The position numbers were made by a program, and so were the translations under genes. The notes beneath the pieces were generated by a model. That model did not search any database, had not been told where the DNA came from, and was given only the letters and a program-made list of their open reading frames with translations. This document shows, in pieces, positions 17,804-62,729 of a stretch of 64,000 nt of DNA. Numbering within the stretch: position 1 is the stretch's first letter; every line of letters begins with the position of its first letter. The stretch covers positions 5,580,001 to 5,644,000 of the forward strand of contig NZ_CP109013.1 of the NCBI RefSeq assembly GCF_036226745.1, read 5' to 3'. This DNA is from Streptomyces sp. NBC_00683. Lineage in GTDB: Bacteria > Actinomycetota > Actinomycetes > Streptomycetales > Streptomycetaceae.

Positions 17804-17912
17804 TCAGTAGGTCCAATGGACGACCCCGAGTGCACTCTCCTGAGCCAAATGGGGGAGGGTGGAGACAGTCAGGGCACCTCGAAGAAGAGGCACTACGTCG
17901 GTGAGGGATGAC

Positions 17913-19202
17913 GTGAGCGACAACTCTGTAGTACTGCGGTACGGCGATGACGAGTACACCTACCCGGTGATCGACAGCACCGTCGGCGACAAGGGCTTCG
18001 ACATCGGGAAGCTCCGGGCCAATACGGGCCTGGTCACGCTGGACAGCGGATACGGCAATACGGCCGCGTATAAATCCGCCATCACCTACCTCGACGGCGA
18101 GCAGGGCATCCTGCGGTACCGCGGATACCCGATCGAGCAGCTCGCGGAGAGCTCGACGTTCATCGAGGTCGCCTACACGCTGATCAACGGTGAGCTTCCG
18201 AAGGTCGACGAGCTGTCGGACTTCAAGAACGAGATCACCCAGCACACGCTGCTGCACGAGGACGTCAAGCGGTTCTTCGACGGCTTCCCGCGCGACGCCC
18301 ACCCGATGGCCATGCTGTCCTCGGTCGTCAGCGCGCTGTCCACGTTCTACCAGGACAGCCACAACCCGTTCGACGAGGAGCAGCGCCACCTCTCGACGAT
18401 CCGGCTGCTGGCCAAGCTCCCGACGATCGCGGCGTACGCGTACAAGAAGTCGATCGGTCACCCGTTCGTCTACCCGCGCAACGACCTCGGCTACGTCGAG
18501 AACTTCCTGCGCATGACCTTCTCGGTCCCCGCCCAGGAGTACGTGCCGGACCCGGTCGTCGTCTCGGCGCTGGAGAAGCTGCTCATCCTGCACGCGGACC
18601 ACGAGCAGAACTGTTCGACCTCCACCGTGCGTCTGGTCGGCTCCTCGCAGGCGAACATGTTCGCCTCGATCTCCGCCGGTATCTCGGCCCTGTGGGGACC
18701 GCTGCACGGTGGCGCCAACCAGTCGGTGCTGGAGATGCTCGAGGGCATCCAGGCCAACGGCGGCGACGTCGACTCCTTCATCCGCAAGGTGAAGAACAAG
18801 GAGGACGGCGTCCGGCTGATGGGCTTCGGCCACCGCGTCTACAAGTCCTTCGACCCCCGCGCCACGATCATCAAGGCCGCGGCGCACGACGTGCTCTCCT
18901 CGCTCGGCAAGTCCGACGAGCTGCTCGACATCGCGCTCAAGCTGGAGGAGCACGCGCTCTCCGACGAGTACTTCGTCTCGCGCAACCTCTACCCCAACGT
19001 GGACTTCTACACGGGTCTGATCTACCGGGCCATGGGCTTCCCGAGCGAGATGTTCACCGTGCTCTTCGCGATCGGCCGGCTCCCCGGCTGGATCGCCCAG
19101 TGGCACGAGATGATCAAGGAGCCGGGATCCCGCATCGGCCGCCCGCGCCAGATCTACACCGGCGAGGTCCTGCGCGACTTCGTCCCGGTCGAGAGTCGCT
19201 GA
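17913..19202 (+). CDS. citrate synthase
   Basis: GTG 17913 gives the 429-residue length usual for the Streptomyces enzyme (N-terminus SDNSVVLRYGDDEYTYPVID). It condenses oxaloacetate and acetyl-CoA to citrate in the TCA cycle. The active-site His residues are in LWGPLHGGANQ and MGFGHRVYK, and the Asp in NVDFYTGLIY. The bacterial type II N-terminal domain is present, so NADH inhibition and a hexamer are possible. A longer in-frame start lacks the conserved N-terminus. It is followed by a hairpin terminator and then a small-RNA-like region. Confidence 0.95.
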   Translation: MSDNSVVLRYGDDEYTYPVIDSTVGDKGFDIGKLRANTGLVTLDSGYGNTAAYKSAITYLDGEQGILRYRGYPIEQLAESSTFIEVAYTLINGELPKVDELSDFKNEITQHTLLHEDVKRFFDGFPRDAHPMAMLSSVVSALSTFYQDSHNPFDEEQRHLSTIRLLAKLPTIAAYAYKKSIGHPFVYPRNDLGYVENFLRMTFSVPAQEYVPDPVVVSALEKLLILHADHEQNCSTSTVRLVGSSQANMFASISAGISALWGPLHGGANQSVLEMLEGIQANGGDVDSFIRKVKNKEDGVRLMGFGHRVYKSFDPRATIIKAAAHDVLSSLGKSDELLDIALKLEEHALSDEYFVSRNLYPNVDFYTGLIYRAMGFPSEMFTVLFAIGRLPGWIAQWHEMIKEPGSRIGRPRQIYTGEVLRDFVPVESR

Positions 19203-19264
19203 ATCCGGCTCCCGCACCTGCTGCAGTACCCGGCCGCATCGGCCGACTGCCTTCGCCCCGCGTG

Positions 19265-19288
19265 CCGCGCTCGCTGATCAGAGCGCGG
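19265..19288 (+). terminator. citrate synthase terminator
   Basis: CCGCGCTC (19265-19272) pairs perfectly with GAGCGCGG (19281-19288) around an 8-nt loop, 63 bases after the citrate synthase stop. Confidence 0.6.
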
Positions 19289-19352
19289 TGTCCGGGGCGT
19301 TTCGGCGTTCCTGGGGGCCTTGCGACGGCGCCACGAGGCTGCCGGAGTGCGA

Positions 19353-19473
19353 GAAACGCCCCGCCGCCGATCCCCCCACGGGTCGACGGACAGGGCGCTT
19401 CCCATATCCCGGAGCGGATTCCCCCCACGGGATCCGGCCGGGCGTCTGCAGGGAGCCGAGGCTCCCGTTGTTT
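19353..19473 (+). ncRNA. 6C-like small RNA with twin C6 loops
   Basis: Two successive hairpins share one design and the identical 12-nt loop TCCCCCCACGGG. Hairpin 1: outer stem CGCCC/GGGCG (19357-61 with 19393-97), small internal loop, inner stem CCGCCGA/TCGACGG (19364-70 with 19383-89, one mismatch). Hairpin 2: CCCGG/CCGGG (19408-12 with 19438-42), internal loop, CGGAT/ATCCG (19415-19 with 19432-36). A Rho-independent terminator follows. The plan of two stem-loops with runs of six C in the loops is that of the actinobacterial 6C RNA family. The 5' end is uncertain: no good promoter is seen, so it may be processed from citrate synthase read-through. Confidence 0.65.
19451..19473 (+). terminator. 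Rho-independent terminator of the 6C-like RNA
   Basis: GGGAGCC (19451-19457) and GGCTCCC (19460-19466) form a perfect 7-bp stem followed by GTTGTTT, one of the few T-rich tails in the window. Confidence 0.7.
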
Positions 19474-19588
19474 GGCTGGTGGTGCGTATTCAGTTCGGTC
19501 CTGCTGTGCGGTCTGCCGGGGTACGTACGAACGGGAGGGCCGCTCAAAGCTCCCCGGTGCACGTGCCCCGGCCAACGCTTGCCAGGAG

Positions 19589-19626
19589 CGTCCCCCAAGA
19601 CACTCCACTGGACGTCCCCCAAGACA
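19589..19626. repeat. two direct copies of a C-rich 14-mer
   Basis: CGTCCCCCAAGACA occurs at 19589-19602 and 19613-19626 (24-bp period). The first copy is framed by CCAGGAG and CTCCACTGG and the second by GGA and TCC, so both can sit in hairpin loops on the plus strand, as in the upstream RNA. Confidence 0.6.
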
Positions 19627-19708
19627 TCCTTGGCATCGCACTCTTAGACTCACCAACCCATCAGATGGTTACCCTCGAATCGGTGTGATCTAAGTCTCTT
19701 TGTGGAAA

Positions 19709-22135
19709 TTACGTGAAGGAGCGCAACCGCAGACTGTTCGTCACGACGAAGACCGACGAAAACGCCATTGCCGCACCTGCGATCATGGGGCTGAGCAGCC
19801 CGAACGCAGCCAGAGGCAGCGCGGCAACGTTGTAGCCGAAGGCCCAGAAGAGGTTGCTTCTGATGGTCGACAGCGTACGCCGTGACAGCCGGATGGCGTC
19901 AGCGGCCACCTTAATATCTCCACGAACGAGTGTGAGGTCGCCGGCCTCGATCGCCGCATCCGTCCCGGTACCCATCGACAGACCCAGATCGGCCACGGCG
20001 AGCGCGGCGGCGTCGTTGACCCCGTCACCGACCATGGCGACGGAACGCCCCTCGGCCTGGAGGCGCCGGACGACCTCCACCTTGTCCTGCGGCATGACCT
20101 CCGCATGGACCTCGTCGATCCCGACCGCGCGTGCCACGGCGTCCGCGACGGCACGGTTGTCGCCGGTCAGCAGAATCGGCCGGAGGCCCAGGGCGCGCAG
20201 CTCCGCGACGGCCGCTGCACTGCTCTCCTTCACCGCGTCGGCGACCTCCAGCACGCCCCGCGCCTCGCCGTCCCAGGCGACGGCGACTGCCGTACGGCCC
20301 TGGCTCGCGGCGTCCGCCATGGCGTCGGCCAGCGGCTGTGTGAGCGCGATCCCGGCGTCGGTGAGCAGCCTCGTGCGGCCCGCCAGCACCTGGTGTCCTT
20401 CGACGGTGCCGCGTACCCCGAGGCCGGGGATTCCGGTGAAGGACTCGGGGGAGGGGAGGGGGGCCGCGGTGCGGTCGGCCGCTCCGGCGGCGATGGCCTG
20501 CGCGATGGGGTGTTCGGAGGCGTGTTCGATGGCGCCCGCAAGGCGGAGGACGTCGGCCTCGGTCGTGCCGACGGCGGTGTGGACGCGCCCGAGGGTCATC
20601 CGGCCGGTGGTGACGGTGCCGGTCTTGTCGAGGACGATCGTGTCGACGCGGCGGGTGGTCTCCAGGACTTCGGGGCCCTTGATGAGGATGCCGAGCTGGG
20701 CGCCGCGCCCGGTGCCGACCATGAGGGCGGTGGGCGTGGCGAGCCCCAGGGCGCAGGGGCAGGCGATGATGAGGACGGCGACGGCCGCGGTGAACGACGC
20801 GGTGATGTCGTCGGTGGCGAGCAGCCAGGCGACGAGGGTACCCAGGGCGATCAGCAGGACGACGGGGACGAAGACCGCCGAGATCCGGTCGGCGAGGCGC
20901 TGGGCCGCCGCCTTGCCGTTCTGGGCGTCCTCGACGAGCTTGGCGATCCGGGCCAGCTGGGTGTCCGCGCCGACGCGGGTGGCTTCGACCACGAGCCGTC
21001 CGGACACGTTGAGCGTGGCTCCGGCCACGGAGTCGCCCGTGGCGGTGTCCACCGGTACCGACTCACCGGTGAGCATCGAGGCGTCGACGGCGGAGAACCC
21101 CTCGACGACGGTGCCGTCCGTGGCGATCTTCTCGCCGGGGCGGACGACGAAGAGGTCGCCCACGGCGAGCCGGCCGACGGGGACGCGTACCTCCGTACCC
21201 CCGCGCAGGACTGTCACGTCCTTCGCGCCCAGGTGCATCAGTGCACGCAGGGCGGAACCCGCAGCCCGCTTGGACCGTGCCTCCAGGTAGCGGCCCAGCA
21301 GGATGAAACCGATGACCCCGGACGCCACCTCCAGGTAGATCGTGGAGGCGGGGTCGGAGCGGGAGACGGTGGCGTCGAACCCGTGCCGCATGTCCGGCAT
21401 GCCGGCGTCGCCGAAGAACAGCGCCCACAGCGACCAGCCGAACGCCGCGAGGGTGCCCACCGACACCAGGGTGTCCATCGTCGCGGCACCGTGCCGGAGG
21501 TTGGTCCAGGTGGCGCGGTGGAAGGGCAGCCCGCCCCAGACGACGACCGGGGCGGCGAGGGTGAGGGAGAGCCACTGCCAGTTGTCGAACTGGAGCGCGG
21601 GAACCATGGCCATCAGGACGACCGGTACGGCGAGTGTCGCCGACACCAGCAGACGCTGGCGGAGCGCGGCGAGAGCTTCGGCGGCCGTTCGGTCGGCCGC
21701 GTCCTGGGCGCCTTCGCGATCCCGGTCCGCCGCCCCGGTTTCCTGGCCCGGCGCGGCTGCCGGCGCCTCCCCGTCGTGCGAGGCTTCCCCACCCCGCGCG
21801 GGGTCCTCGCCCTGCGCGTGTTCCCCGTCGTGCACGGGTTCCCCGCTCCGGGAGTCCGGGGCGGCCTGAGGCGGCTCGGGGGCCGGACGGGGTACGGGCT
21901 GCGCCGTGTAGCCCGTCTTCTCGACCGTGGCGACGAGGTCGTCGAGCGCGGTTCCGGCGCCGAAGGAGACGCGGGCCTTCTCCGTCGCGTAGTTGACCGT
22001 GGCGGTGACACCGTCCATGCGGTTGAGCTTCTTCTCGACGCGGGCCGCGCAGGAGGCGCAGGTCATCCCGCCGATCGTGAGCTCGGCCTCGGAGGTCTCC
22101 GCGGCCGGGGCCGCGGCTGCTGTGGTGCTCGCCAT
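19709..22135 (-). CDS. copA: Cu(I)-exporting P1B-type ATPase
   Basis: The 808-residue pump has one N-terminal heavy-metal domain (GMTCASC, about residues 23-29), then an acidic, His-containing linker of about 60 residues ([18 protein letters not shown]) that is longer than usual. The core contains TGES (actuator), CPC in [21 protein letters not shown] (phosphorylated Asp), the [10 protein letters not shown] loop and [10 protein letters not shown]. The last helices carry YN (GYNVAALPL) and MxxSS ([10 protein letters not shown]), the Cu(I) selectivity signature. It exports cytosolic copper. It lies 152 bp downstream of copZ on the same strand and probably shares its copper-responsive promoter. 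Confidence 0.93.
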
Positions 22136-62656: not shown

Positions 62657-62729
62657 TGCCCCCGGCAGGACTCGAACCTGCGGCCAAGCGCTTAGAAGGC
62701 GCCTGCTCTATCCACTGAGCTACGGGGGC
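62657..62729 (-). tRNA. tRNA-Arg(UCU)
   Basis: The 73-nt cloverleaf has acceptor GCCCCCG/CGGGGGC with discriminator A, D-arm GCTCAGTGGATAGAGC, anticodon loop CTTCTAA (anticodon TCT, reading AGA/AGG) and T-arm GCAGGTTCGAGTCCTGC. CCA is not encoded. AGA is a very rare codon in this genome, so this is a low-demand tRNA. No integrase or duplicated 3' end was found next to it, so no element is inserted here. Confidence 0.95.

Follow-up and report, generated by a model that had tools for sequence, protein, structure and literature searches.

Comparative analysis of the window (the whole stretch of 64,000 nucleotides of Streptomyces sp. NBC_00683 that was analysed) showed that the region between the citrate synthase gene and a copA-like gene holds an RNA of a family already described in Rfam. 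The locus is Scr2736 (RF02831), present in what the sequence evidence indicates to be its full-length form, an RNA of about 300 nt of which the 64-nt Rfam model would cover only a part. This evidence suggests a new definition of Scr2736, as an RNA of the family Streptomycetaceae that is longer than modelled, has its own promoter and repeats a recognition element. In the parts of the literature covered by our search, the length, the promoter, the family-wide plan, the repeated G-loop element, and the amplification and inversion appeared to be new. The features are listed in Table 1, in which the names citrate synthase and copA-like were taken from the preliminary description of this DNA and from a reading of the translations.

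Table 1. Features of the Scr2736 locus and its flanks (positions are those of the window)
Feature	Position	Strand	Remark
Citrate synthase gene	17859-19202	+	convergent neighbour of the RNA in the window
Proposed RNA extent	19338-19640	-	predicted to start shortly downstream of the -10 and to end directly after P5
Hairpin P5	19351-19403	-	same loop element as P4; last conserved hairpin, terminator-like; pairs on both strands
RF02831 (Scr2736) match	19382-19444	-	81.1 bits; stops inside P5
Hairpin P4	19408-19442	-	CCC-GUGGG-GGG with bulged A; stem exchanges
Lineage-specific hairpin between P3 and P4	19451-19466	-	plus strand terminator of the preliminary description; not conserved
Hairpin P3	19515-19572	-	apical loop CUUUGAGCGGCC at 19538-19549
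Hairpin P2	19585-19606	-	loop UUGGGG; at least one TCTTGGGGG in 61/64 sequences; 6/9 pairs change on both sides
Hairpin P1	19610-19629	-	loop UUGGGG; two TCTTGGGGG copies in 45/64 sequences
Candidate ECF-type promoter GTAACC-N17-GTCTA	19645-19672	-	-35 at 19667-19672; -10 from 19649 down
Conserved box GATCACA	19684-19690	-	possible activator site; fixed distance upstream of the -35
copA-like gene	19709-22135	-	other flank of the intergenic region

Family assignment

RF02831 was the sole RNA family to match at the locus at gathering thresholds, with its score well above the cut-off of 43 bits, and it matched in 141 of 150 Streptomyces genomes, the own genome among them (E <= 0.01). The preliminary description had mentioned, as unconfirmed, a small RNA reported near the citrate synthase gene of S. 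coelicolor, and Scr2736, an sRNA of that species reportedly described by Vockenhuber et al. in 2011, fits this mention. PMC8388888 counts scr2736 among 11 RNAs whose expression was confirmed in S. coelicolor and gives a predicted homologue among the sRNAs of S. ambofaciens, and PMC8079986 marks RF02831 as not transcribed in S. lividans RNA-seq under the conditions used. The literature searched, in partial texts and with the original description outside it, gave no function for scr2736 or RF02831.

Membership of the 6C family, to which the preliminary description had likened the locus, was ruled out. The covariance model of 6C (RF01066) gave no match in 19200-19710 (511 bases), even at E <= 10, the locus matches RF02831, and the genome has a separate 6C gene at G000:C1:4691262-4691337 (43.4 bits against the RF01066 cut-off of 47). 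Matches to 6C were obtained in 59 of 61 genomes of the genus and 29 of 29 of the family (E <= 0.1). The cut-off of 47 was passed in 29 of the 61 genus genomes though 59 match at E <= 0.1, so it seems to miss many Streptomyces 6C genes.

One genome (G068) gave seven RF02831 matches, of which one was the locus with a full match (75.4 bits) and six were weak (31.6 bits). Two of the weak copies that were compared (among L258, L189 and L190) were identical over 597 bases, and the stretch around L258 encodes what we take to be a transposase, presumably IS30-like. The weak matches were rejected as extra members and regarded as chance similarity within identical copies of a transposase-like gene.

Twin loop copies

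The 12-mer TCCCCCCACGGG occurs on the plus strand of the window at 19371-19382 and 19420-19431, each copy within a hairpin, and the two stems are unlike in sequence, yet paired. In the genome (8.52 Mb) this 12-mer was found four times on the plus strand and not at all on the minus strand, namely as the twin pair, in an intergenic hairpin (L008) and at G000:C1:1686593. Exactly two copies of CCCGTGGGGGG were found in 24 of 27 loci fetched via the citrate synthase protein alone; of the remaining three, L018, cut by a contig end, had one, and L025 and L034 had none. Loci fetched via Rfam had exactly two copies in 30/30, 74/76 and 57/59 cases (the groups of 76 and 59 overlap in genomes), with one or three copies in the others. 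The pair is kept across the loci of relatives and is thus beyond chance, so the identical twin loops of the preliminary description are real. Its presence in 64/64 rows of alignment A1 is partly by construction because the rows were picked by the 9-base core of the loop pair. What had been called a 12-nt loop is indeed an identical 12-mer, but it is better read on the minus strand as CCC-GUGGG-GGG-A, that is, three C-G pairs that enclose a 5-nt loop, with a single bulged A.

The site L008 (G000:C1:4404136-4404147) is a single hairpin GATCCCCCCACGGGATC after a gene with a dihydrolipoamide acyltransferase-like end, as read by eye. It was rejected as a second member or conserved target, with ATCCCCCCACGGGAT in only 7 of 101 genus genomes, and was dropped because, in the stretches compared, two of the seven sites (L326 and L329) were alike and none resembled the site of the own genome.

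Two further observations were made in the window. A hairpin CCGCGCTC...GAGCGCGG at 19265-19288, just after the citrate synthase stop, may be a separate terminator in this lineage, and a tRNA gene lies at 62657-62729 on the minus strand.

Strand of the RNA

Folding of the single sequence gave z-scores of -3.62 for the minus and -3.15 for the plus strand and was set aside as a basis for the strand call, both strands folding equally well. A total of 83 orthologous intergenic regions, left after 4 of 87 had been dropped and with rows chosen by the 9-base core of the loop pair, were aligned, and RNAalifold on 80 of them gave -215.4 for the minus and -193.0 for the plus strand. The wobble test was restricted to the 66 pairs common to both strand folds, because the strand to which a structure was fitted would otherwise be favoured. 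Pairs that are G-U on the minus strand (A-C on the plus strand) made up 296 cells, against 94 for the reverse; 33 pairs leaned to the minus and 12 to the plus strand, as did 70/80 and 4/80 sequences, respectively, all counted over related rows that are not independent events. The minus to plus wobbles were 148:19 in P5, 40:6 in P2, 31:8 in a small 5' hairpin, 17:6 in P1 and 14:2 in P4, while the P3 helices were neutral or slightly opposite (25:25 and 4:11) and a long-range helix was neutral (17:17).

The strand of the RF02831 match and the wobble asymmetry agree, and for this reason the RNA is probably read from the minus strand. Its loops would then be G-rich and unable to pair with G-rich ribosome sites, so the pairing of C-rich loops with such sites that had been proposed falls away. 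The C-rich loops on the transcribed strand that mark 6C are likewise replaced by G-rich ones on the strand that the wobble asymmetry favours. This corrects the strand for readers who would take the C6 loops as those of a 6C relative.

Promoter and extent

Upstream of the hairpins, the pattern GTAACC-N17-GTCT was found in 79 of the 83 aligned sequences and NNAACC-N17-GTCT in the other four. The spacer was 17 bases long in 83/83 sequences and variable in sequence. An AAC-type -35, a GTC-type -10 and a constrained spacer (AACC-N17-GTCT in 83/83) are thus all present, and the promoter geometry is, as read from these sequences, of the ECF type. The candidate promoter resembles the sigmaE promoters of the AACC...CGTCT type that are listed in the part of PMC6767563 available. 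Of 21 family loci, 19 had GTAACC-N17-GTCT as well, L034 and L317 being the exceptions, and GTAACCATN15GTCTA had one occurrence in the own genome. A regulon defined by GTAACC-N17-GTCT was ruled out as a claim and none is made, because the exact pattern had three sites genome-wide and was no commoner than its reversed control, also with three.

Of the 83 sequences searched, 80 had a promoter hit, and in 75 of these the conserved box further upstream, as TCACA, TCACT or TCACG, preceded the start of the -35 by 16 bases. The distance was 17 in the other five, where the promoter was located with a fallback pattern whose anchor lies one base further on. GATCACA (GGTCACA in L321) was present in 19 listed family loci of the 21 searched.

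Alignment of the orthologous regions showed that minus-strand conservation runs from about 19692 to about 19350, and the conserved block was seen as well in L026 and L031, whose fetched flanks showed no copA-like gene. The conservation, the compensatory changes, the ECF-type promoter with its fixed 17-base spacer and the terminator-like last hairpin together argue for an RNA of the proposed length. The preliminary description had proposed a small RNA, to be looked for as a transcript of 100-120 nt; a conserved structured RNA beside citrate synthase stands, and its 120-nt segment appears to be the 3' part of the longer element. The two loops are set apart by a distance that shifts in single-base steps (44 to 52 in the rows listed), an argument against a reading frame conserved across them.

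Conserved secondary structure

Downstream of the promoter the order is P1, P2, P3, a lineage-specific hairpin, P4 and P5. P1 is missing in some relatives, or swapped for a hairpin with the loop CUCCCGGCGGA or similar. In L303-L322, a first hairpin with a CUCCCGGCGGA-like loop was seen in other genera and some Streptomyces in place of the UUGGGG hairpin, and such a loop could pair with GGGAG of P3. The P3 core TGAGCGGCC was present in 64/64 sequences, the rows not having been chosen for it, and CTTTGAGCGGCC had one occurrence in the own genome. The hairpin between P3 and P4 had been described as a plus strand terminator; in the window it is followed on that strand by GTTGTTT, but most relatives have other sequences there.

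In P4, the inner stem showed G-C/C-G, A-U/G-C and U-A/A-U exchanges between clades with 100% of the helix cells paired, and CCC-GUGGG-GGG-A stayed unchanged while this stem was swapped. Alignment A4 of P4-P5 (30 sequences out of 39, including 11 from other genera, with rows chosen for the loop and not the stems) had 97.4% of its cells in standard pairs, and sliding the partner by one column lowered the pairing to 57-66%. Changes on both sides of a pair numbered 73 cells against 26.9 in shuffles, with 0 of 500 shuffles as high, which bears out the compensatory behaviour that had been ascribed to the differing stems. Alignment A2 of P2-P3 (27 of 59 sequences) had 95.2% standard pairs and 28 cells changed on both sides against 8.4 in shuffles (0/500 as high), and in A1 (64 rows) at least one both-side change was seen in 18 of the 44 predicted pairs.

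Distribution, copy number and orientation

A model of P2-P3 (R1) gave matches (E <= 0.01) in 143 of the 249 genomes of the Streptomycetaceae, spread over 9 of the 17 genera sampled. In each of 20 family loci taken from its weaker matches, citrate synthase was a neighbour of the RNA, and the two converged in 19 of them and were co-oriented in L321. The loop element CCCGTGGGGGG occurred twice in 17 of these loci, six times in one (L316, genome G165), and not at all in L306 and L317. L306 had altered loops in both hairpins, while L034 (Kitasatospora humi) and L317 kept the P3 loop and a P1'-like hairpin and had lost the G loops. Nine Streptomyces genomes had no Rfam match. A diverged RNA that keeps the promoter and the P3 loop but has just one GUGGG hairpin was present in three of them (L367-L369), and no match was obtained in the remaining six at E <= 0.1. 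In L025, the fetched locus showed no loop pair and no P3 core. Many copies are thus not strictly needed, given the single hairpin of L367-L369, the altered loops of L306 and the loss of the G loops in L034 and L317.

A model of P4-P5 (R2) matched 22 of 246 genomes of the class, all Streptomyces (1 of 103 genera), a count limited by the poor P4 fold on which the model was built and by the strict filters under which it was run. Genome G165, of a non-Streptomyces genus of the family, had three tandem P4-P5 modules with six CCCGTGGGGGG copies beside citrate synthase (L316; L360 = G165:C52:1-5200), spaced by 45, 55, 45, 55 and 45 and carried on differing stems. Genome G093 had three copies in two fetched loci (L149 and L219). 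Over 183 loci, some of which overlap, two copies were counted in 173, one in 3 and none in 4.

The RNA and citrate synthase are co-oriented in the divergent Streptomyces loci L238, L239, L240, L241 and L321. A complete promoter lies between the citrate synthase end and the RNA in L321, and the form AACC-N17-GTCT lies between them in L238 and L240. Judged from these arrangements, the promoter and the RNA are inverted as one block and the RNA is its own transcription unit. That the RNA is inverted with its promoter where this was read (L238, L240 and L321) argues for a gene of its own over a 3' region of citrate synthase.

Proposed function and alternative explanations

The reading we prefer is an independent minus-strand gene with its own ECF-type promoter, whose RNA of about 300 nt carries repeated G-rich loops and acts by titration; taken as a whole, we give it slightly less than an even chance. 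Strand, extent, promoter geometry and structure draw support from the sequences, and we infer where the transcript begins and ends, which kind of sigma factor and partner it has and what it does in regulation. An active ECF sigma factor would lead to the minus-strand RNA being made from its own promoter. The RNA would end at P5, which may here also serve as a terminator for the convergent citrate synthase gene, and it would display several copies of one recognition element, as UUGGGG in P1/P2 and as CCC-GUGGG-GGG with a bulged A in P4/P5. It would then sequester a partner, most likely an RNA-binding protein, otherwise a C-rich RNA. Titration is favoured because an identical loop element sits on freely changing stems and its copies are multiplied (six in G165, three in G093), and a protein is preferred over simple pairing because the conserved CCC side and bulged base would be needless for base pairing alone.

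A base-pairing sponge, in which the G-rich loops kiss and block the C-rich loops of 6C (UCCCCCC) or of other C-rich RNAs, is considered unlikely. The C runs of the 6C loops are complementary to GGGGGGA of P4/P5 and to GGGGGA of P1/P2, and 6C is widely co-present, but in genomes of this kind a match between G runs and C runs comes easily. The duplex energy of 6C with the RNA was set aside because such runs inherently score well against each other. Between genomes with and without G-loop hairpins, the C runs of 6C hardly differed, the C6-C6 pattern being found in 56 of 59 loci. Two of the three exceptions had no 6C in the stretch read, and the third, L355, from a genome with the RNA, had a run of five C; slight departures were seen both in L340, from a genome without an R1 match, and in L355. 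The loci compared gave no sign of co-evolution of 6C and the G loops. Since 6C is in nearly every genome and its C runs hardly change, the phyletic pattern gives this sponge no support.

The P3 loop, being invariant, could act as a seed or as a second binding site. A trans-acting sRNA with CUUUGAGCGGCC as its seed, in which the G-loop hairpins merely stabilise, would account for the invariance of the P3 core in rows not selected for it and for the survival of the P3 loop in L034 and L317, where the G loops are lost. The strict GUGGG repeats and their amplification would be left unexplained, and we assign this explanation a low probability.

P5 is a strong hairpin between the convergent genes of the window and able to end both transcripts, so a bidirectional terminator with untranslated region and no functional RNA was weighed as well. 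This explanation is very improbable, because the block spans about 300 nt, its loops are invariant, its stems change in a compensatory manner and its promoter has a fixed spacing, and because it is kept also where a copA-like neighbour is not found or where it is inverted. A plus-strand RNA 3' of citrate synthase with C6 loops and a 6C-like action, for which the good folding of that strand and the pairing of P5 on both strands could be cited, is hardly credible against the wobble asymmetry, the Rfam strand, the minus-strand ECF promoter, the lack of a 6C match and of a conserved plus-strand terminator, and the inverted loci.

Within the titration reading, a more specific and doubtful version is a Csr-like layer of the Streptomycetaceae that works without CsrA, in which an ECF-controlled RNA of about 300 nt would titrate a protein recognising CCC-GUGGG-GGG with the bulged A, and the dose of sites would be tuned by tandem duplication, up to six. 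P4, P5 and the P3 loop could serve as exact bait sequences for finding a possible post-transcriptional partner in these antibiotic producers.

Comparison with known RNAs

Titrating RNAs of the CsrB/RsmZ type carry several hairpins with one identical loop element, variable stems and a varying copy number. The RNA described here resembles them in the loop element shared by several hairpins, in its variable stems and in its varying copy number, with two copies being few for the class. The GUGGG loop with the bulged A is presumably not the CsrA element, and we know of no CsrA in Streptomyces. The likeness to 6C (RF01066) lies in two hairpins with a repeated homopolymer loop, whereas the loops here are G-rich on the supported strand, the covariance model gives no match and the genome has a separate 6C gene. 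Ms1/scr3559 of Streptomyces is also structured and a few hundred nt long, but lies at another locus, SCO3558-SCO3559, according to PMC9130861. The closest known system is Scr2736 (RF02831) itself, which has the same locus beside citrate synthase and the same strand in Rfam. Its model runs from the start of P4 to inside P5, and the RNA here adds the promoter, P1-P3 and the complete P5, with a P2-P3 module that reaches genera outside Streptomyces.
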